A stretch of DNA of 64,000 nucleotides from Luteibacter sp. Sphag1AF (GTDB taxonomy: Bacteria; Pseudomonadota; Gammaproteobacteria; Xanthomonadales; Rhodanobacteraceae). The first letter of the stretch is position 1. Each line of letters opens with the position of its first letter. The stretch lies in NCBI RefSeq assembly GCF_014192715.1, contig NZ_JACHYH010000002.1, forward strand, positions 434,001 through 498,000, given 5' to 3'. The position numbers and the translations under genes are program-made. Shown here one piece after another: positions 6,877 to 48,848 of the stretch. The notes beneath the pieces were generated by a model. It was not told the DNA's origin, ran no database searches, and saw only the letters and a list, made by a program, of their open reading frames with translations.

Positions 6877-7480
6877 CCGGCAGCTGCGCCCGCTCCAGCG
6901 CGGCAACGTGCCGTTCCAGCCTTGGCCCCAGATAGCACTGTGAGCCACAGGGCAAAAGGCCCGCTTCGGAGAACTCCCGCAGATACCACGCGGGCGGTCG
7001 GGAAATGAAACCCTCGCGGTCGCCGCCCACATCGTCCTCTCGCGTATAAGCCTCAAGAAACGCCAGGCCTTCCAGCATCTCGCCGATACCGGTCAGGCCC
7101 GCGCGAATCTCCGCAGGCTTCAGGTAATGCAGCACATCGGTGCAAACGATGAGGTCGAAGCGGGTATCGAAACGCAGTTCGGCCAGCTGACCGAAGCGTG
7201 CCAGACCAATGTTGCGCGAACGGCCATAACGCGACACCACGTACTCGCTGGCGTCCAGCCCGCGATAGTCGATGCCCGGACGCATGGCACGCAGCACGGC
7301 GCGCCATGGCGCCTCGCCGCATCCCACGTCCAGCACATTGCGGACAGGGCGCCCCAGATAGAACTCCGCCTGCCCCAATACCATGGCGACCTTGCGCTTG
7401 AGTTCTGCGGGTGAGCGTACGGAATGGTCCGGGTGCCGGTACCACTTGTCGAAATAAGCCTGGTCGTATGTCTTTGCCAT
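6869..7480 (-). CDS. Class I SAM-dependent methyltransferase
   Basis: A 203-residue predicted methyltransferase. The SAM-binding loop VLDVGCGEAPW is at 49-59, the acidic residue after beta2 is in YRGLDAS, and motif IV is FDLIVCTDVLHYL. The shortened C-terminal half ends in a small segment rich in aromatic and basic residues. Substrate cannot be predicted. The ATG at 7480 is chosen over an upstream start because MAKTYDQAYFDKWYR is a typical N-terminus for this group. The nearest plus-strand gene begins 100 bases away and is divergent. Confidence 0.83.
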   Translation of the reverse strand: MAKTYDQAYFDKWYRHPDHSVRSPAELKRKVAMVLGQAEFYLGRPVRNVLDVGCGEAPWRAVLRAMRPGIDYRGLDASEYVVSRYGRSRNIGLARFGQLAELRFDTRFDLIVCTDVLHYLKPAEIRAGLTGIGEMLEGLAFLEAYTREDDVGGDREGFISRPPAWYLREFSEAGLLPCGSQCYLGPRLERHVAALERAQLPVR

Positions 7481-7580
7481 GGGCGTGATCTTAACGGCAA
7501 ATGCCCATACACCTCCGGCATACATCCACGGATGCAGCATCGGTTGCGCATTTGTCTTTCCATCCGTTCAAGGAGCTCCC

Positions 7581-7910
7581 ATGCCTACCATCCGCCTGCG
7601 CCTCACCGGCTCCCGCGATGCATTCGACACGATGCTGTCTGCCATTGAGGGCGTCGAGCAGGTTGACCGCGTCGAAGAAATTGATGACCTGATGAACGAG
7701 ATGCGCGACGACTCCAGCTCCAGCGAAATGTCCGACGACCTCGCCGGCTCGACCTCGTACGTGGCAGAAGTGCAGGCACCGAGAGGCAGTATGGAACTGG
7801 TGCGTCGGCTCGCCGAAGCGACCGCGCGAAACATGGAAGCGGCGCTGGAGTTCCTGGGCCCTGAAGACGATGAAATGTTCGGTCGCGATGAAGACGACGA
7901 TGATGAGTAA
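7581..7910 (+). CDS. Small acidic protein of unknown function
   Basis: A 109-residue protein preceded by a good AGGAG ribosome site 6 bases before the ATG. Residues 1-35 look like a small alpha/beta fold with ACT-like alternation (TIRLRLTGSRDAFDTMLSAIEGVEQVDRVEEI). The middle is Asp/Ser-rich and the C-terminus ends in a run of Asp and Glu (about a dozen acidic residues). No catalytic motif or membrane segment is visible. No function is assigned. It lies alone between divergent and co-directional genes, with no evident operon partner. Confidence 0.72.
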   Translation: MPTIRLRLTGSRDAFDTMLSAIEGVEQVDRVEEIDDLMNEMRDDSSSSEMSDDLAGSTSYVAEVQAPRGSMELVRRLAEATARNMEAALEFLGPEDDEMFGRDEDDDDE

Positions 7911-27747: not shown

Positions 27748-28370
27748 GCGCTCGGCATCCTCGACTCCTTGAGATGGGCGCGGGGGCGACCCTCGGCTGA
27801 GGGCATCATAGCGGCCCCGCTGGGCCACTGCATGGCGACGGGAACACGGTTTCGGCAACCTTCCGCCACCAGTCATCCATCATCGGACGCGCAGCCCAGA
27901 ACAGCATCGGGCGCTCACCGGCAACGCGAAAGCCCGCACTTCCCCGGGTCGTCATCCAACACGACTGCTATACCTCAACGCAGGTGTCACCCTAAATCAG
28001 GACGGGTCAGGCCAACGCCACGCTGCGCTTGCCCCCGAATCGCTCCCGGCCCTTCCCTCTCGTTAATCGGTCGCCACCCGCGAAGGGGTCAGGGCCTACA
28101 AACCTCCACGGGCGGGGACTACCGCCACCTGATCCAACGAGCCCCACCTACACATCCTCGGCCGGATACATCTGTTACAATTCAACGGTTAGCGAGGATT
28201 TACTCAGGCTTGTCCCGGCTGCCACGTCCTCGAAATAGGGGGCCCGTTTCACGGGCATCAATAGAACTTCACACTTTCGAGGGGCGACACGTCCCCTGGA
28301 CCACGTCGTGCCCGCCTGGCGCCATGGGCGACGTAAACAGGGAACGCGAGCGAAGAAAGGGACATCAAGC
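27748..28370. other. 623-base upstream region of the aryl polyene operon
   Basis: No convincing gene was found between the secreted-protein gene and the first acyl carrier protein gene. Open frames here are short and start without ribosome sites. It holds a candidate promoter at 28173-28181 and leaves a predicted leader of about 180 nt before the ACP start. It is the longest intergenic stretch in the window, as expected for a regulated operon. Confidence 0.6.
28173..28181 (+). promoter_or_regulatory. Candidate extended -10 promoter of the aryl polyene operon
   Basis: TGTTACAAT matches the extended -10 pattern TGnTAnAAT, in an AT-rich island of an otherwise GC-rich gap. No clear -35 is visible. 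It would drive the whole 28.4-42.3 kb operon. Confidence 0.45.
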
Positions 28371-28640
28371 ATGACCACCGACACGGCTGAAGCCTTAAGC
28401 AACGACGACATCCTGGCCCGCCTGAAGGAAGTGCTCAACGGCACGTTCGAGATCGACCCGGCACGGGTCACCCTCGATGCGCACCTGTTCACCGACCTTG
28501 AGCTGGACAGCATCGACGCCATCGACCTCGCCATCCAGGTGCAGGACATGACCGGCGCACGCATCAAGCCCGAAGATTTCAAGAGCGTCCGTACCGTCGG
28601 CGACGTTGTCGCCACCGTGCGCACCCTGATCGAACGCTGA
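28371..28640 (+). CDS. Aryl polyene acyl carrier protein 1
   Basis: An 89-residue ACP. The phosphopantetheine site is LELDSIDAIDLA, with Ser47. The protein is acidic and helical, as expected. It is the first gene of the aryl polyene (xanthomonadin-like) operon, corresponding to one of the two carrier proteins (ApeE/ApeF in E. coli; XanC in Xanthomonas) that hold the growing polyene. The ATG at 28371 follows GAAAGGGACATCAAGC; an in-frame upstream start is rejected as it adds only Arg/Lys-rich residues. The next gene begins 11 bases after the stop. Confidence 0.88.
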   Translation: MTTDTAEALSNDDILARLKEVLNGTFEIDPARVTLDAHLFTDLELDSIDAIDLAIQVQDMTGARIKPEDFKSVRTVGDVVATVRTLIER

Positions 28641-28651
28641 GCGGCAAGTCC

Positions 28652-29428
28652 ATGTCGGCCGACGGCGCCACCGTGGCGCATCGTTTCGCGCCCTGTGCGC
28701 TGATTCCGATCTACAACCATAAAGAAACCATCACCCGCACCGTGCAAGCGTTGCGCGCGCACGGGCTGCCGGTGGTGATCGTGGATGACGGCAGCGACGC
28801 GCCCACCCGCGACGTGCTGGACACGCTGGTTGCCGACACCCCGCAGGTCACGCTCATCCGGCTTGCCCGGAATCAGGGCAAGGGCCGCGCGCTCTGCGCC
28901 GGCCTGATTGCGGCGCACGACGCAGGTTTTACCCACGCGCTGCAAATCGACGCCGATGGCCAGCACGACGTTGCCGACGTGCCCGCCTTTCTTGCCGCAT
29001 CCCAGGCGCGTCCCGCTGCCATGGTCTGTGGCAAGGCGCTGTACGACGACAGCGTGCCGCGCGCCCGCCTGTATGGCCGCTACCTCACGCATGTTTTCGT
29101 CTGGCTGGAAACGCTGTCCTTCGACATTGCAGATTCGATGTGCGGCTATCGCCTGTATCCGCTGGAAGCCACGCGTGCCGAAATCGCGCGCGCCCCGCTT
29201 CCGGCACGCATGGACTTCGACACCGAAATCGCCGTGCGCCTGCACTGGCGCGGCGTGCCCGCGCTGAATCTGCCCACCCGGGTCATCTACCCGGAAAACG
29301 GGCTCTCCCATTTCCGCATGCTGCGCGACAACGCGCGCATCACCGCCATGCACACGCGACTGGTGCTCGGCATGCTGATCCGCGCGCCGCGCATCCTGGG
29401 TCGCCGTCTCTCCGGAGCTTTCCGCTGA
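28652..29428 (+). CDS. Aryl polyene glycosyltransferase, GT2 family
   Basis: A 258-residue family 2 glycosyltransferase. Motifs are VIVDDGSDA at 43-51 (nucleotide-sugar binding) and LQIDADGQHD at 98-106 (metal-binding DxD region). MCGYRLYP and MDFDTEIAVRLHWRGV lie in the second half. It probably transfers a sugar or sugar-phosphate to the polyene lipid, as GT2 enzymes in other aryl polyene clusters are believed to do; sugar unknown. Its stop overlaps the LolA-like gene's start (TGATG). Confidence 0.86.
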   Translation: MSADGATVAHRFAPCALIPIYNHKETITRTVQALRAHGLPVVIVDDGSDAPTRDVLDTLVADTPQVTLIRLARNQGKGRALCAGLIAAHDAGFTHALQIDADGQHDVADVPAFLAASQARPAAMVCGKALYDDSVPRARLYGRYLTHVFVWLETLSFDIADSMCGYRLYPLEATRAEIARAPLPARMDFDTEIAVRLHWRGVPALNLPTRVIYPENGLSHFRMLRDNARITAMHTRLVLGMLIRAPRILGRRLSGAFR

Positions 29429-30051
29429 TGCGTTATCTGCTGCTTTTCCTGCTCTGCCTGCTGCCCGTGGGCCTGGCCCATGCCGATGCCACGGCGCCGC
29501 GTCCCGCCCTGCTCGATCAGGTGCTGCAACAGCTGGCGCGACACGGCAAGGTGCGCGCGAACTTTACCCAGACGCGCGAGAACCCCGCGCTCGCCCAGCC
29601 TCAGGCAAGCCACGGCGACCTGCTCTTCGTGGTCGGCCACGGCATGATCTGGCACATGCGCGAACCTCTGGAAGACACGCTGGTCATGACGCCTTCCGGT
29701 GCATCGCGTATCGACGCCAACGGCGACATCGCTCCCGTACGTGACGGCAACCGGGGCGTCACCCAGGTGTCGCAGATGCTGCAATCCATGCTGGCTGGCA
29801 ACGCGGACGAGCCGTTGCGCCAGTTCGACGTCACCGTCGAGGGATCGCTCGCTCACTGGAGCATGCGGTTCACACCCCGCCAGTCGCGCATGGCAAAAGT
29901 GCTGGCCGCCATCCAGTTGAGTGGCAACGAATATCTCCAGGCCATCGACGTGGAGCTGCGCAGTGGCGAAGCCACCCGCATCCGCTTCGAAAACACGCGC
30001 GACGCCGGTGAACTCACGGGCGTGGAACAGCGGGCGCTTGGCGGCCCATGA
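29428..30051 (+). CDS. LolA-like outer-membrane lipoprotein carrier protein
   Basis: A 207-residue exported protein with a signal peptide ending near residue 19 (LCLLPVGLAHADA). The mature part has the LolA-like beginning LLDQVLQQLARHGKVRANFTQTREN and a GDLLFVVGHGMIWHMREP segment. The family corresponds to ApeM in aryl polyene clusters, predicted to ferry the finished product across the periplasm to the outer membrane. The ATG at 29428 shares a base with the glycosyltransferase stop; the ATGA overlap at its end couples it to the MMPL exporter. Confidence 0.84.
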   Translation: MRYLLLFLLCLLPVGLAHADATAPRPALLDQVLQQLARHGKVRANFTQTRENPALAQPQASHGDLLFVVGHGMIWHMREPLEDTLVMTPSGASRIDANGDIAPVRDGNRGVTQVSQMLQSMLAGNADEPLRQFDVTVEGSLAHWSMRFTPRQSRMAKVLAAIQLSGNEYLQAIDVELRSGEATRIRFENTRDAGELTGVEQRALGGP

Positions 30052-32408
30052 TGCGCCTGACACCCGGCCTCCGTGCGAGCCTGTTCGGGCTGGGTGCGCT
30101 CGTACTCACGCTGCTGGGCGCGTGGCTGCTGTTCGGTCGCGGCACCTCGCCATTGCAGACCGACCTGCTGGCCATGCTGCCGCCCACCGAGCGGCAGCCG
30201 GTCGCGGAAGAAGCCGTGGAGCGTCTTTCGCGCGCCAGCGGTGATCGCCTCGTATTTCTTCTGGCCAGCAAGAACGATGACGACGCCAAAGACGCTGCAC
30301 GCACATTCGGTGCGGCGCTTGCGGGCAAGCCTGGCATCGCCAGTGCCATTGCCGAACTGCCGCCGTTTGATCTGGATCAGCTGACCACGCCGTTCCTGCC
30401 GTTCCGCTTCCACCTGCTGACCGCCGCAGATCGCGCGCTTTGGCAGGCGCCGTCTCCTGACGTGGCCGGAATGCTCACCCGGCGCCTCAACGAGCCGTTC
30501 GGTGCAGGCATCGGCACACGTCTCACCGACGATCCGTTCGGCACGTTGCAGCACTGGCTCAACACCCAGCCATTCAATCGCAGCACCCTGATTCCCGAAG
30601 ACGACCTGCTGACGGCACACCGTGGCGACACGACCTACGTGATGGTCATCGCCACGCTGGCCGGATCGTCGTACGACGATCAGATCCAGCGCCCCGCGCT
30701 CGCCTCGGTAGAGGCCGCCACACACACAGTCACGGCCGCGCATCCGGACGTGCACATCCTGCGCACTGGCACAATGTTCTACGCCGCCGCCGCACGCGCG
30801 GGCGCCGAGCGCGATGTGCACGTGGTCGGCATCGCCTCCACCGTGGGCATCGCACTGCTGCTGATTGGCGTGTTCCGCTCGCCACGGCCGCTGCTGCTCG
30901 CGTTTCTTTCGACCGCCATTGGCGTGATTGCAGCGATCACCATCACCATTGCGATCTTCGGCCAGTTGCATCTGCTGACGCTGGTGTTCGGCGCCGCGTT
31001 GCTGGGCGAAGCGGTGGACTACTCCATCCAGTACCTGTGCGCACGTGCCAACGCAGCGCAGGCGTGGAACGCCGAAGCCGGCGTGCGACAGGTTCGGCCG
31101 GCGTTGCTTCTCGCCCTTGCCACGTCGCTTCTGGGCTACGCACTGCTTGGCATGGTGCCGTTCCCCGCGCTTCGTCAGATGGCATGCTTTGCCATCGTCG
31201 GCATGCTGGTCGCCTGTTTCAGCGTGCTCTGGCTGCTGCCGGCACTGGCCAGGCCCGCAGCACGCCGACCCGTATCGCCTGCGCTATCGCGCATCGCGCT
31301 GTCGTGGCAACGCCCCGTCAGCACGCTGGCGCAGGCACGTCGCGGACTGGTCGTTCTCGGCGTGCTTGTAGTGGCCGCCGCGCCAGGCTGGTGCCTGCTG
31401 GACCATGACGACGACATTCACCTGCTGATTTCGCCGCCCGCCGTGCTGGAGCAGGACACCCGCGACATCGCCAGCATTGCCGGCATGGGCACGGGCAGCC
31501 AGTTCTACCTCGTGCAGGGCGACACCGTGGAGCAGACGCTGCAACACGAGGAAGCGCTGACGGCACGCTTGCAGGCGATGATCGAAGCGAAACAGCTCGA
31601 TGCATGGACAGGCGTGACCACCATGCTTCCCTCGGCGCAGCGCCAGCAGTCCAACAGGGATGCCTTCGCACGCGTCCTTGAAAACCGTTCCGTTCTTGCG
31701 GACGCCGCCGAAAAAGCCGGCTTCCGCGCTGGTGCACTGGATGCCTTCGCCAACGCGTGGCCCGGTCGCCCGATGACGCTGGACGACTGGATGGCGATGC
31801 CCGTCTCCATGCCGTTCCATTATCTGTGGATGGGCCAGCGTGGCCACGCGTTTGCCAGCATCGTGCTACCCCAGGGACAGGACGACTCCGCACAACTGGC
31901 CGCTGCGGCCGACGGCCTTCCCGGCATCACGTTCGTGGACAAGCCGGCCAGTGTTTCCGCACTGTTTGGCCGCTATCGCGGCTACGCCGATGTATGGCTG
32001 GGTGCCGCCCTGCTGCTGGTGGGCGTCGCCTTTGCCTGGCGTTACGGCTTGCGCGCCGCGCCGCGCGTGCTTGCGCCGCCGTTGCTCGGCATTGGCCTCA
32101 CACTGGCCGCACTGGGTTATCTCGGGCAGCCACTCACCCTCTTCCACGTCATGGCCTTGATGCTGGTGCTGGGTGTGGGCGCGAATTACGCCGTATTCCT
32201 GCGCGAAGGCGAGCCACATACCGCGCAGCGTCCGGGTGCCGCCTATGCCGGCGTGCTCCTTTCGGCCATCACTGCCCTGTTGTCGTTTGGCCTGCTGGCA
32301 TTGAGTACGATGCCGGCCCTTCGTCACTTCGGTACCACCCTGCTTCTGGGTATCGGCTTCACCGTGCTTCTGGCACCGGTCAGCCTGCCCCGCGAGACTT
32401 CCCGATGA
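30048..32408 (+). CDS. MMPL family exporter of the aryl polyene operon
   Basis: A 786-residue inner-membrane RND/MMPL transporter with a duplicated layout. Each half has a periplasmic domain, then a helix bundle: helices at about 12-30 and 250-400 in the first half, 420-440 and 650-780 in the second. Conserved membrane motifs include GAALLGEAVDYSIQYLCAR near 312-330 and GVGANYAVFLREGE near 708-721. It matches ApeN-type exporters, moving the aryl polyene or its lipid to the periplasm for the LolA-like carrier. It overlaps both neighbours by ATGA (30048-30051 and 32405-32408). Confidence 0.88.
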   Translation: MMRLTPGLRASLFGLGALVLTLLGAWLLFGRGTSPLQTDLLAMLPPTERQPVAEEAVERLSRASGDRLVFLLASKNDDDAKDAARTFGAALAGKPGIASAIAELPPFDLDQLTTPFLPFRFHLLTAADRALWQAPSPDVAGMLTRRLNEPFGAGIGTRLTDDPFGTLQHWLNTQPFNRSTLIPEDDLLTAHRGDTTYVMVIATLAGSSYDDQIQRPALASVEAATHTVTAAHPDVHILRTGTMFYAAAARAGAERDVHVVGIASTVGIALLLIGVFRSPRPLLLAFLSTAIGVIAAITITIAIFGQLHLLTLVFGAALLGEAVDYSIQYLCARANAAQAWNAEAGVRQVRPALLLALATSLLGYALLGMVPFPALRQMACFAIVGMLVACFSVLWLLPALARPAARRPVSPALSRIALSWQRPVSTLAQARRGLVVLGVLVVAAAPGWCLLDHDDDIHLLISPPAVLEQDTRDIASIAGMGTGSQFYLVQGDTVEQTLQHEEALTARLQAMIEAKQLDAWTGVTTMLPSAQRQQSNRDAFARVLENRSVLADAAEKAGFRAGALDAFANAWPGRPMTLDDWMAMPVSMPFHYLWMGQRGHAFASIVLPQGQDDSAQLAAAADGLPGITFVDKPASVSALFGRYRGYADVWLGAALLLVGVAFAWRYGLRAAPRVLAPPLLGIGLTLAALGYLGQPLTLFHVMALMLVLGVGANYAVFLREGEPHTAQRPGAAYAGVLLSAITALLSFGLLALSTMPALRHFGTTLLLGIGFTVLLAPVSLPRETSR

Positions 32409-32443
32409 ACACTGCATTCGCACTACGGAGTAACCGCCCATGA
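32405..32443 (+). CDS. 12-codon mini-ORF bridging the MMPL and first KS genes
   Basis: The ATG at 32405 overlaps the MMPL stop (ATGA), and its TGA at 32441-32443 overlaps the ketosynthase ATG at 32440 (ATGA). It encodes MNTAFALRSNRP. A CGGAG ribosome site for the ketosynthase lies inside it. It may act as a translational relay rather than make a functional peptide. It may also arise by chance, since a downstream ATGA always offers a stop in one frame. Confidence 0.45.
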   Translation: MNTAFALRSNRP

Positions 32444-33666
32444 AACGCGTCGTTGTCACGGGCATGGGCGGCATCACTCCACTGGGTAAAGACTGGGACA
32501 CCATCGAAGCCCGGCTTCGCGCGGGTCACAATGCGGTGCGCCGCATGCACGAATGGGACTACTTCGATTCCCTGAACGGGCGCCTCGGCTGTCCTGTGGA
32601 CGACTTCGTGCTGCCGGACTGGCCGCGTCGCCACCTGCGCTCGATGGGCCGCGTCGCCCGCCTCGCCGTCGCCGCCAGCGAGCTGGCGTTGCGCGACGCC
32701 GGCCTCGAAGGCAATCCGGATATCAGCGATGGACGCATGGGCGTGGCCTATGGCTCGTCCGGCGGCAGCATCGAACCGGCACGCACCATTGGTCACATGC
32801 TGGAAACCGGCTCGATGCAGGGCGTCACTGCCACCAGCTACATCCAGATGATGTCGCACACCACGGCGGTGAACATCGGAGTGTTCTTCGGCCTGAAGGG
32901 CCGCATCATTCCCACCTCCAGCGCGTGCACCTCGGGCAGCCAGGCCATCGGCTACGGCTACGAGGCCATCCAGCAGGGCAAGCAGACCCTGATGGTCTGC
33001 GGTGGCGCGGAAGAACTCTCCGGCCCTGGCGCAGCGGTGTTCGACACGCTGTTCGCCACCAGCACCCGCAACGACGAGCCGTCGCTGACGCCCCGGCCGT
33101 TTGATGCCAGGCGCGATGGCCTGGTGGTGGGCGAAGGCGCTGCCACGCTGGTGCTTGAAGAATACGAACACGCGAAGGCACGCGGCGCGCACATTTATGC
33201 GGAAGTCATCGGCTTCGGCTGCAACTCCGACGGCGCGCACATCACCCAGCCCACTCGCGAAACCATGGCCGCCGCCATGCGCATGGCCCTGGCGGATGCG
33301 TCGCTCGCACCGGAAGCCATCGGTTACATCAGCGCCCATGGCACCGCCACCGATCGCGGAGACGTGGCAGAGAGCCATGCCACCGCCAGCGTGCTCGGCA
33401 CGGACGTGCCCATCAGTTCGATGAAAAGCTATGTCGGCCACACGTTGGGTGCCTGCGGTGCACTGGAATCGTGGTGGGCCATCCAGATGATGCGTGAGGG
33501 CTGGTTCGCTCCCACCATCAACCTGACCCAGCCCGATCCCGAATGCGCACCGCTGGATTACGTGACCGGCGAAGGACGCGCGATCCGCACCGATCACGTC
33601 ATGAACAACAACTTTGCCTTCGGCGGCATCAACACGTCGCTGATCTTCAAGGCGTACCACGGATGA
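32440..33666 (+). CDS. Beta-ketoacyl-ACP synthase 1 (FabF-like)
   Basis: A 408-residue ketosynthase. The triad is complete: Cys163 (SSACTSGSQ), His300 (SAHGTATD) and His334 (VGHTLGACG). It condenses malonyl-ACP with acyl-ACP to extend the polyene. It resembles ApeR/ApeO ketosynthases. A chain-length-factor-like gene two genes downstream may pair with it or with the second KS. The stop overlaps the next start (ATGA). Confidence 0.88.
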   Translation: MKRVVVTGMGGITPLGKDWDTIEARLRAGHNAVRRMHEWDYFDSLNGRLGCPVDDFVLPDWPRRHLRSMGRVARLAVAASELALRDAGLEGNPDISDGRMGVAYGSSGGSIEPARTIGHMLETGSMQGVTATSYIQMMSHTTAVNIGVFFGLKGRIIPTSSACTSGSQAIGYGYEAIQQGKQTLMVCGGAEELSGPGAAVFDTLFATSTRNDEPSLTPRPFDARRDGLVVGEGAATLVLEEYEHAKARGAHIYAEVIGFGCNSDGAHITQPTRETMAAAMRMALADASLAPEAIGYISAHGTATDRGDVAESHATASVLGTDVPISSMKSYVGHTLGACGALESWWAIQMMREGWFAPTINLTQPDPECAPLDYVTGEGRAIRTDHVMNNNFAFGGINTSLIFKAYHG

Positions 33667-34862
33667 AGCGCGTGGTCGTCACCGGCATGGGCGCGGTGTC
33701 CTGTCTGGGTACAGGCGCCGATGCGCTGCTGGACGGCTTGTTCGCCGGGCGCAGCGGCATCGTGCACGTACCGGCATTCACTGAGCTTGGCATGCGTTGC
33801 CAGGTGGGCGCGCCGGTCGATGCAGGACTGCTGGACGAAGCTCCGCGCAAACTGCGCCGTTACCTCTCGACGCCGGCCACGTATGCGTGGCACGCCATGC
33901 GCGAAGCCATCGCACAGTCCGGACTGGAAGACACATCGCTGGCAGGGCGCGACTGCGGCCTGCTCATGGGTGGCAATGCCGCGCTCAGTGAACATGAGGC
34001 TGCCTTGCACGCGCATCGCACGCGCGGCATCTCACGCATGTCGCCATTCACGGTGCCGCGTTGCATGACCAGCGCGCTACCGGCCAGCCTGGCGCACGCA
34101 TTCGGCATCGGTGGGCGCAGCTATCTGCTGAGTTCAGCCTGCGCCAGCGGCGCGCATGCGATAGGCCAGGCCATGGAACTGATTCAGCTGGGTCGACAGA
34201 ACATCGTCATCTGCGGTGGCGCCGAAGAGCTCGACGAAAAAACCGCCATGTGTTTCGACGTGATGGGTGCGCTGTCTGCCAGCGGCGTGTCGCGCCCGTA
34301 TGACGAGCAGCGTGATGGCTTCGTGCCGGGTGCGGGCGCTGCCGTACTGGTGCTTGAATCCCTCGAACATGCCACCGCGCGCGGCGCGACCGTCCTGGCT
34401 GAGCTCGTCGGCTATGGTGCCGCCAACGATGCGCAAAGCATGGTGCAACCGGGCGTCGACGGCATCGCGGAAGCCATGCGTCAGGCGCTGGAACAATCCG
34501 GCGCCACTCCCGATTACATCAACACGCACGCATGCTCCACACCGCAGGGCGACCTGATGGAGTGGCAGGCCATCCACGCCGTGTTTGCTGAACTTGGCCA
34601 CACGGTACCGGGCATCTCATCCATCAAGGGCGGTATCGGCCACGCTCCGGGTGCAGCGGGTGCCCTCGACGCCGTGGCGTGCATCGGCATGATGCAGCGT
34701 CAGTCCGTCCCGGGCATGGCCATCGCACAGCGCGAGGCGGCATTTGCATCGACGCCACTGCTGACCGGCACGACTGCGGCAACGCTCCGCACCGTGCTGA
34801 GCAACAGCTTCGGCTTCGGCGGCAGCTGCGCAACGCTGGTTTTCCGGAGGGAGGCGGCGTGA
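33663..34862 (+). CDS. Beta-ketoacyl-ACP synthase 2
   Basis: A 399-residue ketosynthase. Cys160 (SSACASGAH), His289 (NTHACSTPQGD) and His327 (GGIGHAPGAAG) complete the triad. The usual HGTxTxxND at His1 is replaced by HACSTPQGD, a substitution shared with other KS-type proteins of aryl polyene clusters. Residues around PFTVPRCMTSALPA at 128-141 are typical of FabB/FabF enzymes. The next gene encodes a likely KS-like partner, its start overlapping this stop by GTGA. Confidence 0.87.
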   Translation: MKRVVVTGMGAVSCLGTGADALLDGLFAGRSGIVHVPAFTELGMRCQVGAPVDAGLLDEAPRKLRRYLSTPATYAWHAMREAIAQSGLEDTSLAGRDCGLLMGGNAALSEHEAALHAHRTRGISRMSPFTVPRCMTSALPASLAHAFGIGGRSYLLSSACASGAHAIGQAMELIQLGRQNIVICGGAEELDEKTAMCFDVMGALSASGVSRPYDEQRDGFVPGAGAAVLVLESLEHATARGATVLAELVGYGAANDAQSMVQPGVDGIAEAMRQALEQSGATPDYINTHACSTPQGDLMEWQAIHAVFAELGHTVPGISSIKGGIGHAPGAAGALDAVACIGMMQRQSVPGMAIAQREAAFASTPLLTGTTAATLRTVLSNSFGFGGSCATLVFRREAA

Positions 34863-35596
34863 TCGACATCCAGATTGACGCATGGCGCGCGTGGGCACCG
34901 GGCATTGACGCCGATGCCGCCTGGCGCGACTGGGCAAGTGCACCGCGCGCGCTGATCGACAGCGGCCAGCAACCGTCATGCGCGTTCATTCCCGCGATGC
35001 AACGCCGTCGCCTGAGCCGGCTGGCGCGCATCACGATGGATGTCGCCTGGCCGCTGTGTGCCGACGACGAACAACTGCCGTTCGTCTTTGCATCGCGTCA
35101 TGGCGAAACGCCGCGCACGTTCGCGCTGCTGGAAGACATCGGCCGCGATCAGCCCCTGTCGCCGACCCAGTTCGGCCTGTCGGTGCACAACGCCATCGCC
35201 GGACAATGGTCGATTCTGCGTGGGCAGAAAGGCGAATCGGTCGCGCTGGCCGGCGAAGGCGACACCTTCGAGCACGCCATGCTGGAAGCGGCGGCGCTCC
35301 TTCACGAAGGCGCGCCGTCCGCGCTGGTCGTCATGGCAGAGGAACAGCCCGCCGAAGCGCTGCGGTCGTGGATCGACGATGTACCGTTCTCCTATGCCGT
35401 CGCACTGCGCGTGTCGTTGCCCGACGCCTCCTCATCGGCTACCCGCTGGCGCCTCAGCCTGCACGCCAACGACGCCGATGCCCGGCCCGGTGCATGGCCA
35501 AATGCACTGGATTTTCTGCGCGCTTTGCATGACCCTCACGCGCCCGTTCAACATGCATGGAGATCACGCCAATGGAAGTGGCACCGACTACCGTGA
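34859..35596 (+). CDS. Chain-length-factor-like truncated ketosynthase
   Basis: A 245-residue protein with a KS N-terminal-domain fold (Pfam beta-ketoacyl synthase N-terminal type 2), lacking the catalytic Cys and both active-site His. Key features are WASAPRALIDSG near 25-36, MQRRRLSRLARITMDVAWPL near 45-65 and SPTQFGLSVHNAIAGQWSI near 103-121. Such proteins (ApeC in E. coli) partner a catalytic KS in aryl polyene synthesis and set chain length. The GTG start overlaps the KS2 stop and is the only start that gives the family N-terminus. The 25-base overlap with the next gene suggests coupling. Confidence 0.8.
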   Translation: MIDIQIDAWRAWAPGIDADAAWRDWASAPRALIDSGQQPSCAFIPAMQRRRLSRLARITMDVAWPLCADDEQLPFVFASRHGETPRTFALLEDIGRDQPLSPTQFGLSVHNAIAGQWSILRGQKGESVALAGEGDTFEHAMLEAAALLHEGAPSALVVMAEEQPAEALRSWIDDVPFSYAVALRVSLPDASSSATRWRLSLHANDADARPGAWPNALDFLRALHDPHAPVQHAWRSRQWKWHRLP

Positions 35597-36360
35597 CCCG
35601 GCGCACCAACGCCTATCCGCTGCGCCTGGTGTCCACGGCGCTGAGCTTCGCTTTTTTCGGTATGGGCGGGCTGTTGCTGCGAGCGCTCATCCTGCCCGTG
35701 GTGTGCCGTTGGCCGGGCAGTCCCGAAGTGCGCCGTCGCCGCGCCCGACGCACGGTCGGCTGGGCGTTCTGGCTGCACTATCGCTTCATGATCGCCAGCG
35801 GTGTCCTGCACTTCCGCTTTGAAGGCAAGGAGCGCCTGGGCAAGCCCGGGCAGATGATCGTGGCCAACCATCCGTCGCTGATCGACGTGGTGTTTCTTCT
35901 GGGCAACATCCGCGACGCCAACTGCATCGTGAAGCGCAGCCTCTGGCGCAATCCGTTCATGCGTGGGCCCATCAGCACGGCACAGTACATCAGCAACAGC
36001 GGCGGCCCGGAAATGCTGGACGAAGCGGCACAGGTCCTCGCCGATGGCCAGGCTCTGCTCGTGTTTCCCGAAGGCACCCGCACCACGCCGGGTACCGCAC
36101 CCTGCTTTCATCGTGGCGCCGCAGCCATTGCACTGCGCAGCGCGCGGATCGTCACGCCCGTATTCATCACCGTCACCCCGTCGATGCTGACCAAGGCCGA
36201 GCCCTGGTACCGCATTCCGCATCGCCGCCCCACCGTCACCATTCGGGTGGGCGAGGACATCGAGGTTGCCACCTTCAGAGAATCAGCGCCCCTGCCGATA
36301 GCGTCGCGCCGGCTCAACGATCAGTTGCACGACCTCTACGCAAGGGAACTGGGTACATGA
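35572..36360 (+). CDS. Lysophospholipid acyltransferase family protein
   Basis: A 262-residue acyltransferase with a hydrophobic N-terminal segment at 20-42. The catalytic HX4D motif is NHPSLID, with His100 and Asp105; the substrate-binding motif FPEGTR lies near 162. It belongs to the PlsC superfamily (ApeD-like) and probably esterifies the polyene acid onto a lipid. The ATG at 35572, with GGAGA 8 bases upstream, is preferred over an in-frame ATG at 35557 that lies on that ribosome site. The stop overlaps the next start by ATGA. Confidence 0.84.
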   Translation: MEVAPTTVTRRTNAYPLRLVSTALSFAFFGMGGLLLRALILPVVCRWPGSPEVRRRRARRTVGWAFWLHYRFMIASGVLHFRFEGKERLGKPGQMIVANHPSLIDVVFLLGNIRDANCIVKRSLWRNPFMRGPISTAQYISNSGGPEMLDEAAQVLADGQALLVFPEGTRTTPGTAPCFHRGAAAIALRSARIVTPVFITVTPSMLTKAEPWYRIPHRRPTVTIRVGEDIEVATFRESAPLPIASRRLNDQLHDLYARELGT

Positions 36361-36626
36361 CCGATCTTGAACGCGACATTGCCCAACTGATCATCGACAC
36401 ACTGAATCTCGAAGAGACCACCGTGGCGGACATCCCCGCGGACCTGCCACTGTTCGGCCAGGGTCTCGGGCTGGATTCGGTGGATGCCCTGGAACTGGCG
36501 CTGGCGCTGCAAAATGTCTATGGCATCAAGCTGGCCGCCGACTCGCGTGATGCGCGCCAGCATTTCGCCACTGTCGGCAACATGGCCCGGTTCGTTGAAG
36601 CACAGCGCCTGCCATGCAACGACTGA
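36357..36626 (+). CDS. Aryl polyene acyl carrier protein 2
   Basis: An 89-residue ACP. The phosphopantetheine motif is GLDSVDALEL, with Ser41. Unlike ACP 1, it lies mid-operon beside the acyltransferase and the chimeric membrane/dehydratase gene, which suggests it serves a different step, such as the primer or the product transfer. The stop overlaps the next gene's start by 13 bases. Confidence 0.87.
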   Translation: MTDLERDIAQLIIDTLNLEETTVADIPADLPLFGQGLGLDSVDALELALALQNVYGIKLAADSRDARQHFATVGNMARFVEAQRLPCND

Positions 36627-37801
36627 GCTCACTCATCCTGGCCGTGGTTGGCGTGCTGTATCCCTTCATCGTGTATTTCGGGATGGAGCACATGTCCACG
36701 CCGCTGTTCGCGATGCTGCTGGGCGCCATCTGGCTGATTCGCGCACCTGCACTGATGCGCCAGCCCGGTGGTCGCTGGATGCTGGGAGCGGCACTGGTTT
36801 ACTGCATGTTTCTTGCCGTCAGCGGTGAGTCGGTGGTGCTGCGCTGGTATCCCAGCCTGATCTGCGCGCTGCTGCTGTGCGCCTTCGGACTCAGCCTGCG
36901 CTACGGGCCGCCGATGATCGAACGCATCGCGCGGGTGACCGAACCGGACCTGCCTCCGGCTGCCGTGCGTTACACACGCAAGGTCACCTGGGTCTGGGCG
37001 GGCTTTTTCGCGTTCAATGCGATCACCTCCGGCGTGCTCGCCGTGTATTCGCCGCTGAATCTGTGGACGCTGTACAACGGCATCATCGCCTACTCGATCA
37101 TGGGCGTGCTGTTTGCCGGCGAGTGGCTGCTGCGCCAGCGGTTGCGTCGACGCATCAGTGACGCACCCATGAATGCCGCGGCACAACGCCTGGCGACGCA
37201 TCCATGGGTCGAGCAGGCCCATGCGGGCTATGCGGGAAAGCTCGGGGCGGGCATGGTCGTGCTGCTGTCTGCGGCCGGTCGCATGGCACTGCTGCGCCAC
37301 GGCCGCAAAGGACTGGTCAGCGAGCTATCCACGCAGGCCGTCGATCCGGCAGACACCGAGCTGTCCGCACCGCGCATGTGGCGCTTTCCGGATGCGTTGC
37401 CGTCCGTGGTCACGCGCCGTCATGTCGATACCTGCCTGCGCCAGCCGCTGCCGGTGGCGCCGGTTATCCTCGCCGAGCGCAGCACGGAGTCAGGTCACGT
37501 GCTGGAACTGGCACTGCCGCTGGATCTCGCCTGCTTCGCCGATCACTTCCCCGAGGCTCCCGTGTTGCCGGGCGTCGTGCAGGTGGGCTGGGCGCTGGAT
37601 TTCGCGGCTGCGCGCCTTGGTACGCCCCGGCAATGCCGCAGCATGGATGCGCTGAAGTTCCAGAGCCTGCTGCGACCCGGGGATCGTGTGGACCTGGAGC
37701 TGACCCACGACGCCGAAAAGCAGCGCCTCACCTTCGCGTGGCGCCGTGGACAGACCCACTATTCCTCCGCACGAATGCAACTGGAGACCGTGGGTGTCTG
37801 A
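36614..37801 (+). CDS. Chimera of ApeG-type membrane protein, AMP-ligase stub and ApeI-type dehydratase
   Basis: A 395-residue protein. Residues 1-182 are a polytopic COG4648 (ApeG-type) membrane protein ending RQRLRRR. Residues about 190-275 resemble the C-terminal subdomain of aryl polyene AMP-ligases (HPWVEQAHAGYAGKLGAGMVVLL, LLRHGRKGLVSEL, RMWRFPDALP), but the N-terminal adenylation core is absent and the catalytic Lys region (usually NxxGK) reads SVVTRRHVDTC. Residues 280-395 are an ApeI-like hot-dog dehydratase with HFPEAPVLPG (His311). The join is near 37160-37185. The most likely history is an in-frame deletion removing most of a ligase gene and fusing its neighbours. The last part probably still acts as dehydratase; the ligase cannot. 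Confidence 0.78.
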   Translation: MQRLSSLILAVVGVLYPFIVYFGMEHMSTPLFAMLLGAIWLIRAPALMRQPGGRWMLGAALVYCMFLAVSGESVVLRWYPSLICALLLCAFGLSLRYGPPMIERIARVTEPDLPPAAVRYTRKVTWVWAGFFAFNAITSGVLAVYSPLNLWTLYNGIIAYSIMGVLFAGEWLLRQRLRRRISDAPMNAAAQRLATHPWVEQAHAGYAGKLGAGMVVLLSAAGRMALLRHGRKGLVSELSTQAVDPADTELSAPRMWRFPDALPSVVTRRHVDTCLRQPLPVAPVILAERSTESGHVLELALPLDLACFADHFPEAPVLPGVVQVGWALDFAAARLGTPRQCRSMDALKFQSLLRPGDRVDLELTHDAEKQRLTFAWRRGQTHYSSARMQLETVGV

Positions 37802-38741
37802 TCCCGCCGATGGCAGCCTGCACTGGGCCGCACAGCGCGAGCGTGGCAACTTCATGGCCATCAAGCTCACCGCCTGGGCGGTGCGCTCGTTTGGCCGCCG
37901 CACCATGACGCCCCTGCTCTACGCCATCGTCTTCTATTTCTTCGCCACCGGCCGCACGGCACGGCGGCACATCCGTCTTTACCAGAAGCACCTGGCTGAC
38001 TGGAGCGGACGCCCCGGGCTCGCTCCGCGCACAGGCAGCGTCTTCGCCCAGTTCATGCGCTTTGGCGAATGCCTGCTTGATCGCCTGGATGCATGGCGAG
38101 GCAAGCTCGGCCCCGCCGACGTGGACATGCACGACCCGTCCGGCGTGCGCGATGCGCTGCGCGCCAGTGGCAATGGCGTGCGTGGCCAGATTCTGGTCTG
38201 CACGCACCTGGGCAATCTCGATGTTTGCCGCGCCATGGCCGAGGCCGGGGAGCGCGTGCCGCTGAACGTGCTGGTGCACACCCGCAACGCCGTGCATTTC
38301 AATCGCGTGATGAATGAGGCAGGCGACCACGGCATGCGCCTCATCCAGGTCAGCGACCTGGACACCGCCGTGATGATGGACCTGTCGCAGCGCCTTGCGC
38401 GCGGCGAATGGATTGCCATCGCCGGCGACCGTATTCCGTTGCACGGGGGCCGCAGCGTCACCGTCGATTTTCTCGGGCGCCCCGCCGCCTTCCCGCAGGG
38501 CCCATGGCTGGTGGCCAGCCTGCTGCGCTGCCAGACCAACCTCATCTGCTGCCTCAAGATCAAAGGCCGCTACCGCATCCATCTGGAACGTGGCCCGGAC
38601 GCCTCGGCGTGGGACCGCCGCGAGCGCGATGCGCGTATCAGCGAATCGGTGCGCGGTTATGCCCACTGGCTGGGCCAGCGCTGCCTCGATGCGCCACACC
38701 AGTGGTTCAATTTCCACCATTACTGGAACGACAAGGACTAA
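37794..38741 (+). CDS. LpxL/HtrB-type lipid acyltransferase
   Basis: A 315-residue inner-membrane acyltransferase. The N-terminal segment WAAQRERGNFMAIKLTAWAVRSFGRRTMTPLLYAIVFYFFATG matches LpxL-like proteins; a CTHLGNLDVCR segment supplies the HX4D motif, and a late FPQGPWLVASLLRCQT region follows. It is the second acyltransferase of the operon, probably transferring an acyl or polyene chain to the lipid anchor. The GTG at 37794 is chosen over an internal ATG because its N-terminus matches the family and GGAG lies 7 bases upstream. It overlaps the upstream gene by 8 bases. Confidence 0.83.
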   Translation: MSDPADGSLHWAAQRERGNFMAIKLTAWAVRSFGRRTMTPLLYAIVFYFFATGRTARRHIRLYQKHLADWSGRPGLAPRTGSVFAQFMRFGECLLDRLDAWRGKLGPADVDMHDPSGVRDALRASGNGVRGQILVCTHLGNLDVCRAMAEAGERVPLNVLVHTRNAVHFNRVMNEAGDHGMRLIQVSDLDTAVMMDLSQRLARGEWIAIAGDRIPLHGGRSVTVDFLGRPAAFPQGPWLVASLLRCQTNLICCLKIKGRYRIHLERGPDASAWDRRERDARISESVRGYAHWLGQRCLDAPHQWFNFHHYWNDKD

Positions 38742-38745
38742 GCCC

Positions 38746-39168
38746 ATGCGAGCCAGCGGCGTACTGCGTGCGCAGATTTCTGTCGACGTGCCCTTCTTCG
38801 ATGTCGACTCGATGGATGTGGTCTGGCACGGCCACTACGTGAAGTATCTTGAACTGGCACGTTGCGCGCTGCTGGACGACCTGGGCCACAACTACGCCCA
38901 GATGCGCGCAGCGGGTTTCGTGTGGCCCATCATCGACATGCAGCTGCGCTACGTGCGCGCTGCGCGCTTCGGTCAGAAGATCACCGTTCGCGCCGACCTC
39001 ATCGAATGGCGCAACCGACTGAAAATCCATTATCTCATCAGCGACGAGGCAAGCGGCGAGCGACTGACGCTTGCAAGCACCGTGCAGGTCGCGGTCAACG
39101 GCGCTGGCGAGTTGCAGCTGGAATCCCCCGCTGTATTCATCGACGCCGTGGAGCGCCGGATCGCATGA
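38746..39168 (+). CDS. 4-hydroxybenzoyl-CoA thioesterase-type protein (hot-dog)
   Basis: A 140-residue acyl-ACP or acyl-CoA thioesterase of the 4HBT hot-dog type. The signature is FDVDSMDVVWHGHYVKYLELARCALL, with the catalytic Asp near 19-22. It probably releases or edits ACP-bound polyene intermediates (ApeK-like). The ATG at 38746 is four bases after the preceding stop; its own stop overlaps a mini-ORF (ATGA). Active-site residues are intact. Confidence 0.87.
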   Translation: MRASGVLRAQISVDVPFFDVDSMDVVWHGHYVKYLELARCALLDDLGHNYAQMRAAGFVWPIIDMQLRYVRAARFGQKITVRADLIEWRNRLKIHYLISDEASGERLTLASTVQVAVNGAGELQLESPAVFIDAVERRIA

Positions 39169-39206
39169 CTTCCCTTCCTCTCATCTGCACGGCTGCCCTC
39201 CCATGA
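39165..39206 (+). CDS. 13-codon mini-ORF bridging the thioesterase and methyltransferase genes
   Basis: The ATG at 39165 overlaps the thioesterase stop (ATGA), and its TGA overlaps the methyltransferase ATG at 39203 (ATGA). It encodes MTSLPLICTAALP. No purine-rich ribosome site precedes the methyltransferase ATG (the upstream bases are pyrimidine-rich), so ribosomes reaching it through this mini-ORF could matter. A chance arrangement cannot be excluded. Confidence 0.45.
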   Translation: MTSLPLICTAALP

Positions 39207-39925
39207 AGTACGCCAGCGCTACCTACGTTGAAGAAACCCGCCTGGGATTCATCTTTCTTCGCACGCACACCTGGCAGCACCACGTGCTTCGCGTGGCCAT
39301 CAATGACCTGAAACGCGTCATCGGCGAACCGCTGCCGCAAGGCGGCTGTCTGGTGGACGTGGGGTGTGGTCAGGGCCGCTCGTTCCGTCACCTGCGCGAT
39401 ACGTTCCGCCCGGATCGCCTGATCGGGCTGGACGCCGACCCGCACAGCGTGGATCTTTCGCGGGCCGAAGCGAAGCGAGAGAACATTCCCGTCGAGTTGA
39501 TCGTGGGAGACTGCGCGCACATTCAATTGCCTGACGCCACCGCAGACATCATCTTCTGTCACCAGACGTTCCATCATCTGGTGGAGCAGGAACGCGCGCT
39601 GGACGAGTTCTGGCGTGTGCTCAAGCCGGGCGGCCTGCTGCTGTTTGCCGAGTCGACCAAGGCCTATATCGACACGTGGGTGATCCGCTGGTTCTTCCGC
39701 CATCCGATGCATGTGCAAAAGAGCGCGGACGAATATCTGGACATGCTGCGTGGTCGCGGCTTTGTCTTCGAACCGTCGGCTGTATCGCTGCCCTATCTGT
39801 GGTGGAGCCGTTCGCGTGATTTCGGTCTGCTGGAGCGCTGGGGCATCAAGGCAGCGCCGCCGGTAGGGCAGCGCGAGGAAACCCTGGTCAATGTCGCGGC
39901 ACGAAAGCCGCTCGACGCCACGTGA
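39203..39925 (+). CDS. SAM-dependent methyltransferase of the aryl polyene operon
   Basis: A 240-residue class I methyltransferase. The SAM loop is LVDVGCGQGRS near 49-59, with the acidic residue in IGLDADPHSVDL, and motif IV is ADIIFCHQTFHHL. It ends in an AAPPVGQREETLVNVAARK segment. It probably methylates the aryl head group or its ring substituent, as in other aryl polyene clusters; position unknown. The gene's stop overlaps the next start by GTGA. It has no Shine-Dalgarno-like sequence of its own. Confidence 0.82.
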   Translation: MKYASATYVEETRLGFIFLRTHTWQHHVLRVAINDLKRVIGEPLPQGGCLVDVGCGQGRSFRHLRDTFRPDRLIGLDADPHSVDLSRAEAKRENIPVELIVGDCAHIQLPDATADIIFCHQTFHHLVEQERALDEFWRVLKPGGLLLFAESTKAYIDTWVIRWFFRHPMHVQKSADEYLDMLRGRGFVFEPSAVSLPYLWWSRSRDFGLLERWGIKAAPPVGQREETLVNVAARKPLDAT

Positions 39926-41109
39926 AAACGTATCTGAATGCGCTGGGAGTGGTGTGCGCGCTGGGACAGAACAAGTCCAGCGTGGCCGAGGCCCTTTTTG
40001 CAGGCGAACGCGGTGGCGTTCGCTCCACGCCCGGCTGGATGCCAGCCCGTCAGGTGGCGCTGGCGCATGCGCCGCATACGCTGAACGCCCTCCCGGCCGG
40101 TACGGCGACGTGGCGCGACAACCGCAACAATCGCCTCCTGCTTGCCGCGGCACGCGACATCGAGGTAGACGTACGCGACGCCGTAAGCCGCTTCGGCGCC
40201 TCGCGCATCGGCGTGGTGATCGGCAGCAGCACCACCGGCATCGAAGACGCCACGCGTGCCATCGCGCAGCGCGAACGCGACGGCGAGTGGCCCGCTGACT
40301 ACCACTATGCCCATCAGGAACTGGGTGCGCCTGCGGCCGTACTGGCCGACCATTTCCAGCTGAGTGGCCCGGCGTATGGCATCTCCACGGCGTGCACATC
40401 CAGCGCACGCGCCATGCTGAGCGCCCGTCGCCTGTTGCGCATGGGCGTGTGCGATGCCGTGATCTGCGGCGGCGCCGACACATTGTGCCGCCTGGCCATT
40501 CACGGCTTTCATGCACTGGAAGCCGTGGACAGCGACACCTGCCGCCCCTTCTCGCGTGAACGCGGCGGCATCAACATCGGCGAAGCGGCCGCCCTGTTCC
40601 TCATGACGCGCGAACCTGCGCGGGTGGAACTGGCCGGCGGCGGCGCCAGCTCAGATGCCTGGCATCTTTCCTCGCCAGACCCGCAGGGCCACGGCGCCTT
40701 GCAAGCCATGGAGCGCGCACTGGCCAGCGCGGGCATCGCAGCCCACGCCATCGACTACATCAACCTGCACGGCACGGCGACCGAGCATAACGACGCCATG
40801 GAAAGCATCGCCGTCGCGCGGCTGTTCGGTCAGGTGCCCTGCTCGTCCACCAAGGCCATCACCGGACACACGCTGGGCGCGGCAGGTGCACTGGAAGCCG
40901 CATTCTGCTGGCTGTCCCTGAATGACACCGCCGCCGCGCGCCGCCTGCCGCCGCACGTCTGGGATGGTCTGGCCGATGCCGCGCTACCCGCTTTGCGCTT
41001 CACCGACGCGAGCAGCCGCCTGCCTGAAGGCGGCCGCCGCTATCTGATGAGCAATTCCTTCGCGTTTGGCGGCAATAATGCGAGCCTGATTCTGGCGGAT
41101 GCTGCGTGA
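39922..41109 (+). CDS. Beta-ketoacyl-ACP synthase 3
   Basis: A 395-residue FabF-type ketosynthase. The triad is Cys158 (STACTSSARA), His283 (NLHGTATEHND) and His316 (TGHTLGAAG). It is closer to the canonical FabF/ApeO pattern than KS2. GTG start overlaps the methyltransferase stop. With KS1, KS2 and the chain-length-factor-like protein this makes four KS-fold genes in the operon. Confidence 0.88.
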   Translation: MKTYLNALGVVCALGQNKSSVAEALFAGERGGVRSTPGWMPARQVALAHAPHTLNALPAGTATWRDNRNNRLLLAAARDIEVDVRDAVSRFGASRIGVVIGSSTTGIEDATRAIAQRERDGEWPADYHYAHQELGAPAAVLADHFQLSGPAYGISTACTSSARAMLSARRLLRMGVCDAVICGGADTLCRLAIHGFHALEAVDSDTCRPFSRERGGINIGEAAALFLMTREPARVELAGGGASSDAWHLSSPDPQGHGALQAMERALASAGIAAHAIDYINLHGTATEHNDAMESIAVARLFGQVPCSSTKAITGHTLGAAGALEAAFCWLSLNDTAAARRLPPHVWDGLADAALPALRFTDASSRLPEGGRRYLMSNSFAFGGNNASLILADAA

Positions 41110-41579
41110 TGTCCTGGCCCATCGAACAATTGCTGCCGCACGCCGGCGCCATGATCCTGCTGGACGAACTCATCGAGTGCGAAATCGAACGCGTCGTGTG
41201 CACGCGCCGGGTGCAGCGCGGTGCCGCCTTCACGGATCGCGATGGCCTTCCGGCATGGGCAGGCATCGAACTCATGGCGCAGACCATCGCGGCATGGAAC
41301 GGCTACAACGCCCGCGTGGCAGGCCAGCCCGTGCGTCCCGGCTTCCTGCTGGGCACGCGCAGCTACCGCTGCAACGTGCAACATTTTCCCATCGGCACTG
41401 AGCTTCGCATCGAAGCCGTGCGCGGCTTCCACGACGACGAAGGCATGGCCGCGTTCATCTGCCGCATCGAGGCCCAGGACATGCTGGCCGAAGCACGCCT
41501 GACCGTGTTCAGTCCGCCGGATGCCAGCGTCCTGCTCGACCCCGAAACAAACATCATCAAGGAGCCAACTCATGGCTGA
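41109..41579 (+). CDS. ApeP-type 3-hydroxyacyl-ACP dehydratase (hot-dog)
   Basis: A 156-residue dehydratase. It begins MSWPIEQLLPHAGAMILLDEL, where LPHAGAM is typical of FabA/FabZ-like enzymes in aryl polyene clusters, and continues PAWAGIELMAQTIAAWNGYNARVAGQPVRPGFLLGTRSY. With the ketoreductase it creates each double bond of the polyene. The ATG at 41109 overlaps the KS3 stop (TGATG). It overlaps the ketoreductase gene by 8 bases. Confidence 0.85.
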   Translation: MSWPIEQLLPHAGAMILLDELIECEIERVVCTRRVQRGAAFTDRDGLPAWAGIELMAQTIAAWNGYNARVAGQPVRPGFLLGTRSYRCNVQHFPIGTELRIEAVRGFHDDEGMAAFICRIEAQDMLAEARLTVFSPPDASVLLDPETNIIKEPTHG

Positions 41580-42300
41580 CACCATTCTGGTTACCGGCTC
41601 CAGCCGGGGCATCGGTCGCGCCATCGCGCTGCGCCTGGCGCGCGCCGGATACGACATCGTGCTGCACTGCCGTTCGCGTCGCGACGAAGCGGAAGCCGTG
41701 CAGGAGGAGATCAGCGCGCTGGGGCGCGATGCCCGCATCCTGCAATTCGACATCTCTGACCGTGCCGCCTGCGCACAGACGCTGGAAGCCGATGTGGCCG
41801 CACACGGTGCGTACTACGGCGTGGTGTGCAACGCGGGCCTGACTCGCGACGGCGCCTTCCCGGCACTGACCGGCGACGACTGGGACCAGGTGCTGCGCAC
41901 CAACCTCGACGGCTTCTACAACGTGCTGCATCCGCTGGTCATGCCCATGATCCGCCGCCGTGCGGCCGGCCGGATCGTCTGCATCACGTCCGTGTCCGGC
42001 ATCATCGGCAATCGCGGGCAGGTCAATTACAGCGCGTCCAAAGCGGGCGTGATCGGCGCAGCCAAGGCCCTGGCGGTGGAACTGGCCAAGCGCAGGATCA
42101 CCGTGAACTGCGTGGCTCCGGGCCTCATCGACACAGACATGGTGGACGCCGAACTGCCGCTGGAGGAAATCCTTGCAATGATCCCCATGCAGCGCATGGG
42201 CAACGTGGAAGAAGTAGCCGCCACGGTGCAGTTCCTCGTCAGTCCCGACGCTGGCTACATCACCCGCCAGGTCATCGCGGTGAATGGCGGCCTCTGCTGA
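41572..42300 (+). CDS. 3-oxoacyl-ACP reductase (FabG/ApeQ-type)
   Basis: A 242-residue short-chain dehydrogenase. The NADPH loop is TGSSRGIG at 8-15, the catalytic Ser140 (CITSVSG), Tyr153 and Lys157 (YSASK) are all present, and the end is the FabG-like NGGL. It reduces the 3-oxo group of ACP-bound polyene intermediates and forms the KS/KR/DH module with its neighbours. An AAGGAG site lies just upstream of the ATG. It is the last biosynthetic gene of the operon; the FUSC gene begins 29 bases later. Confidence 0.9.
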   Translation: MADTILVTGSSRGIGRAIALRLARAGYDIVLHCRSRRDEAEAVQEEISALGRDARILQFDISDRAACAQTLEADVAAHGAYYGVVCNAGLTRDGAFPALTGDDWDQVLRTNLDGFYNVLHPLVMPMIRRRAAGRIVCITSVSGIIGNRGQVNYSASKAGVIGAAKALAVELAKRRITVNCVAPGLIDTDMVDAELPLEEILAMIPMQRMGNVEEVAATVQFLVSPDAGYITRQVIAVNGGLC

Positions 42301-48580: not shown

Positions 48581-48848
48581 AAGTATTCCCCTGGCTGACT
48601 TCAATGTCTGCGTTCGCGCTGAAACCGGCCGCGTCGCCCCTGCGCGGAGGATGCCACAGCGCATGCCACAAGTTGCGAAAAATCCGGCAACCCTGTGACG
48701 CCGCTCACTTTCTTCGCTGCACCGCAACATTGGCGTGACGAGCGCGACATCCGCCGTGTCGTTTGCCGCCCGCAGTCTCCCGCTGCGATACTTCCGCAGT
48801 TACCCGCACCCTTTCCGGTTGCGGCCATCTGAGTACCACGGAGTTCCC

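Follow-up and report, generated by a model that had tools for sequence, protein, structure and literature searches.

The gene at 36614..37801 (+) of the window, that is, of the whole 64-kb stretch of Luteibacter sp. Sphag1AF DNA analysed here (part of a genome of 4.18 Mb in 18 contigs), raises the question of how an aryl polyene pigment cluster came to carry a primer-activating AMP-ligase reduced to its C-terminal subdomain, or lid, and whether such a pathway can still be alive. The reading frame is open over 395 residues and encodes, in this order, an ApeG domain, a ligase lid remnant spanning approximately residues 184-280 and an ApeI dehydratase:

36614..37159, + strand: membrane domain of ApeG type (COG4648), residues 1-182, with roughly six hydrophobic segments by hydropathy and then the basic stretch LLRQRLRRRI
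37160..37171, + strand: fusion joint, residues 183-186, DAPM
37163..37453, + strand: remnant of the AMP-ligase C-terminal lid, residues 184-280, without the catalytic lysine motif
37454..37798, + strand: ApeI-type dehydratase domain, residues 281-395; HFP..PVLPG motif retained

The two outer domains were those named in the original prediction. Residues 1-182 belong to the ApeG / COG4648 family, as judged by homology to ApeG in hhalign (E 7e-29) and by 50% identity to E. coli ApeG over 75-180. The dehydratase scored above the cut-off of the Pfam ApeI-like model and showed a hotdog fold and the His of the HFP motif, although its start is drawn at 281 instead of 280. The segment between them, taken beforehand as the C-terminal subdomain of an AMP-ligase (about residues 190-275), was confirmed as such by three approaches. 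Profile comparison identified the ligase C-terminal subdomain with an E value of 5e-12, BLAST matched the segment to intact Pseudomonas ligases, and the predicted structure of the lid was confident (pLDDT 92.9, pTM 0.87) and aligned with solved ligase lids. A middle segment unrelated to ligases is thereby ruled out. Pfam models run on the lid alone did not detect the ligase C-terminal subdomain, and membership of the ANL C-terminal subdomain, in the sense of fold only, is based on the sequence profile and the predicted fold. Profile comparison of the lid with XanA2-like ligases gave a weak match; together with the strong ligase-subdomain match, this suggests an origin of the lid in the ApeH-like branch.

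As predicted, the adenylation core is absent and the lysine motif is degenerate. A motif search did not find the (S/T)SG(S/T)(S/T)G loop of the core in the window protein, while the loop was present in all ligase-dehydratase fusions (21/21) and XanA2-like ligases (14/14) compared. Similarly, the catalytic lysine motif was matched by 14/14 XanA2-like ligases and 18/21 ligase-dehydratase fusions, with K435 invariant across all 21 of the latter, and by none of the 22 lid-dehydratase sequences, the window's among them. The window protein has neither of the two hallmarks of a functional ANL AMP-ligase of the ApeH/XanA2 type, core and catalytic lysine motif. Unfused lid-dehydratase proteins start at approximately column 350 of the ligase profile, which we take to lie just past the hinge, so that the whole lid and little else would have been retained.

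The original prediction attributed this architecture to one in-frame deletion. We compared related loci, calling an ApeG of the window type at E ≤1e-70. Such a protein occurs in 50 of 147 Rhodanobacteraceae genomes, and the architecture was read for 42 of these: 11 were fused, all of the same genus, 11 had ApeG and lid-dehydratase as two genes, and 20 had ApeG and dehydratase with no lid, which indicates that the lid is dispensable. Of 12 genomes of the genus, counting that of the window, 11 carry the fusion, which rules out a strain-level deletion or an assembly error. Among the 31 unfused loci of the family, 29 have a possible start codon that overlaps the ApeG stop by 4 nt, other starts being possible too, and two have one directly after the stop. 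Across the 155 loci that were classified (some genomes occur in both locus collections; five short duplicates were dropped beforehand), 80 had ligase core and dehydratase in one frame after the ApeG gene, including Pseudomonas and the family genome G004; the others were 27 lid-dehydratase, 25 dehydratase only, 19 fused and 4 unclassed. Eight named loci among the best 80 had the same fusion, all of them from Luteibacter. The search for an in-cluster ligase in the family yielded two genes: an intact one in G004 and, in G099 (locus L041), a ligase-dehydratase gene whose lid region contains a frame shift, which may be a sequencing error or early decay. We also observed a lid-dehydratase gene at ~7000-7702 of locus L042 (G011), with no ApeG gene found in the surrounding 14 kb.

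A tree was built from the ApeG and dehydratase columns (76 distinct rows, including 21 of the 80 ligase loci; unrooted, quick method). The core and the fusion each required a single change on it and the lid required six, at least four of them forced by starred branches. On this tree, loss of the core appears as one event that preceded the divergence of the Rhodanobacteraceae genera examined; the ApeG fusion appears as a separate single event confined to Luteibacter; and the lid would have been dropped four to six further times, a number that is uncertain given the quick tree method and the long branches flagged in it. The presence of the core in Pseudomonas, in other Xanthomonadales families and in E. 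coli is the basis for reading its change as a loss and not a gain. A single deletion is contradicted by these data, since core loss and fusion are separate changes and since other genera share the core loss yet keep ApeG and lid-dehydratase as two genes, nearly all overlapping.

We then considered whether the surrounding pathway might be dead, as the original prediction had allowed. By gene content the window cluster is of APE type, with the following genes around the fused one:

28308..28640, + strand: ApeF-type ACP (49% to ApeF; PP-binding)
28652..29428, + strand: family 2 glycosyltransferase
29428..30051, + strand: LolA-like carrier (approximate start; domain inside ORF 29140-30051)
30048..32408, + strand: MMPL exporter
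32440..33666, + strand: ketosynthase
33660..34862, + strand: ketosynthase
34859..35596, + strand: ApeC-like protein (Ketoacyl-synt_2; ApeC name by analogy; approximate start)
35557..36360, + strand: acyltransferase, ApeD position
36357..36626, + strand: ApeE-type ACP (56% to ApeE; NF006617 above cut-off)
37746..38741, + strand: LpxL-like acyltransferase (drawn from the first start codon of its ORF; translation probably begins further downstream)
38744..39168, + strand: thioesterase, 4HBT type (approximate start; inside ORF 38395-39168)
39205..39925, + strand: SAM methyltransferase (approximate start; inside ORF 39071-39925)
39922..41109, + strand: ketosynthase
41106..41579, + strand: ApeP-like dehydratase (Pfam ApeP-like, 1.3e-18)
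41569..42300, + strand: ketoreductase, FabG2 type

The cluster genes that were scanned are open and have the expected domains. The ApeF-type ACP is located at the start of the cluster, apart from the ApeE-type ACP; the two stand side by side in 31 different loci of the order that carry the ligase, as they do in E. coli. Loss of one ACP together with the core is ruled out by the ApeF-type gene at 28308-28640. At loci L019 and L020 of two same-genus genomes (G112, G033), where ~1.5 kb upstream was covered, no ApeE-type ACP was found directly upstream of the fused gene.

Selection on the fused gene was assessed with 14 Luteibacter sequences (91 pairs). Ratios of mean pN to mean pS were 0.25 for ApeG, 0.30 for the lid and 0.40 for the dehydratase; because synonymous change is high in most pairs, they are a comparison between segments and not exact rates. 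In pairs involving the window's own sequence, lid and dehydratase had similar ratios. These values indicate that purifying selection acts on all three segments in Luteibacter, on the lid about as strongly as on the dehydratase domain, if not more so; the pathway therefore hardly looks dead. A dead pathway with a decaying gene would account for the loss of the activation core, but in view of the purifying selection on all three segments, the open cluster genes and the conservation of the fusion across the genus, we regard it as highly improbable, and the suggestion of a dead pathway finds no support in either the cluster genes or the lid. Recent decay is contradicted by the shared fusion and by the constraint on the lid. 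The picture of a single deletion in a possibly dead pathway gives way, at the level of sequence, to that of a shared, stepwise and constrained architecture. The same data bear on whether the lid is a passive relic, kept only because its removal from a fused or coupled gene would rarely be neutral. Repeated loss of the lid elsewhere, with the dehydratase kept, favours this explanation, which is compatible with activation in trans, whereas the lower pN/pS of the lid than of the dehydratase and its confident predicted fold argue against it; on balance we find it rather unlikely.

If the pathway is alive, its primer would need activation by an enzyme from elsewhere, as the original prediction had pointed out. 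An intact candidate was found on contig C1. The genome has nine matches to the AMP-binding family, including a stand-alone ligase of 457 aa (C1:1080954-1082324) with core and lysine motifs intact, which is 27% identical to the ligase-dehydratase profile over 413 aligned columns and 26% identical to E. coli ApeH. In view of its neighbourhood, among other things, we presume it to be XanA2-like, XanA2 being the name of Xcc4015. A second, xanthomonadin-type cluster is located 22-35 kb from this ligase (C1, ~1046400-1058900), on another contig than the window. According to tblastn, it contains a ketosynthase, a glycosyltransferase, an ACP, an LpxL-type acyltransferase and an MMPL exporter like those of the window. 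Domain searches added a flavin halogenase and a protein with a chorismatase domain. Independently, Table 1 of PMC11165876 gives two such clusters, one xanthomonadin-I-like and the other a second arylpolyene cluster, for each of the five strains of Luteibacter mycovicinus. Xcc4015 is described as essential for pigment, and its homologue ArcT as activating 3-HBA in vitro (PMC3949708); for ApeH, adenylation of 4-HBA and its loading onto ACP are described (PMC8253772).

At E 1e-20, a XanA2-like ligase was detected in 142 of 147 Rhodanobacteraceae genomes and in 49 of the 50 that bear the window ApeG type. Since this ApeG type is missing from 93 of those 142 genomes, presence of the ligase does not by itself tie it to window-type clusters. 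The five genomes without it, all of whose candidates were scored, are G004 and G099, where the in-cluster ligase gene is the only match, and G020, G023 and G097, where nothing better than 2e-6 was found. G020 has an eroded cluster with no lid (locus L057) and 30 AMP-binding matches; none of its 50 scored candidates reached 1e-20, the best being a piece of a long open frame of 1933 aa at 4e-6, which leaves one cluster without an evident activator. Among 299 genomes of the order, with the best 4-5 candidates per genome scored, a ligase-dehydratase was present in 37 (E <1e-100) and a XanA2-like ligase in 144 (E ≤1e-50). The two were never found together (0/299; Fisher p 3e-12, uncorrected for kinship). 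This mutual exclusion fits interchangeable activation systems and may in part be a matter of lineages; G020 does not fit. The original prediction had named an intact ligase elsewhere in related genomes, together with a conserved and distinct middle domain, as counting against it. Both were found, and the part concerning homology to ligases stands.

An altered polyene, made without a free aromatic primer activated by an ANL ligase, for which the ketosynthases would start from acyl-CoA or fatty acyl-ACP so that the cluster needs no ligase, would accommodate G020 as well as a gene order unlike that of ligase-bearing clusters, with the ApeF-type ACP away from the ApeE-type one. However, both ACP types, the ketosynthase and dehydratase genes and the methyltransferase remain, and nearly all such genomes have a ligase able in principle to serve them. 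We consider this alternative improbable. Activation in trans is the mechanism that we infer to be the likeliest; homology, order of events, constraint and the presence of substitute genes are the elements supported directly by sequence comparison.

The gene is probably the product of a two-step ApeG-lid-ApeI fusion whose core would have been expendable through a XanA2-like ligase serving both clusters. The ancestral operon would have consisted of apeG and, after it, a gene for a ligase-dehydratase. Deletion of the adenylation core (~350 residues) in the ancestor of the Rhodanobacteraceae clusters would then have left a self-contained lid ahead of the dehydratase and a start still overlapping the apeG stop. 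Later, in Luteibacter, the apeG and lid-dehydratase genes would have been joined in frame. In our view, loss of the core was possible because a chorismatase and an intact stand-alone ligase are available in the same cell: the xanthomonadin-type cluster and the XanA2-like ligase would make and activate hydroxybenzoate, and this ligase would also load the ApeE-type ACP of the window cluster. The cluster would then encode a second polyene pathway that is live, in which the fused protein would be a dehydratase anchored in the membrane and bearing a non-catalytic lid. The lid itself may dock the ACP, may make the connection between membrane domain and dehydratase more rigid, or may simply be left over; its constraint speaks against this third possibility, and its repeated loss elsewhere against its being necessary. 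ANL lids dock the carrier protein in the thiolation state. A tentative and rather doubtful proposal is that the lid, once half of an active site, has become a non-catalytic adaptor: a free-standing ANL C-terminal subdomain that can still dock the carrier protein and, through its fusion to ApeG, keeps the ACP close to the membrane-bound dehydratase.

Direct comparison with the APE cluster of E. coli CFT073 (ApeG-ApeH-ApeI) identified homologues of ApeG, ApeI, ApeE and ApeF here. The E. coli apeG and apeH genes overlap by four bases, like those of ApeG and lid-dehydratase in most unfused relatives, but E. coli has a complete ligase of 452 aa in ApeH and a separate gene for ApeI, whereas the window has the lid only, fused on both sides. 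The E. coli gene names were assigned by order in Table 1 of PMC8253772. The ligase-dehydratase fusions in APE-type clusters of Pseudomonas and Xanthomonadales (~560-570 aa) occupy the same place after apeG with the same order of lid and dehydratase but keep the core and the catalytic lysine, both missing from the window gene. The xanthomonadin cluster with XanA2 (Xcc4015)/ArcT has its counterpart in the cluster on the other contig, distinct from the window gene. A lid-only aryl polyene ligase, in truncated or fused form, was not named in the portions of the literature covered by our searches, which took in few subscription journals. The loci compared form a stepwise series around one bacterial family, from full ligase to lid alone to none, and nearly all of these genomes also carry a candidate for the replacement enzyme. 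They make it possible to test whether two polyene pigment systems can share one primer-activating enzyme and whether an ANL lid is of any use without its catalytic body. Elsewhere in the window, 45776-48730 (-) encodes a large protein that, from its translation read by eye, combines a part resembling subtilisin-like proteases with a C-terminus like that of autotransporters.
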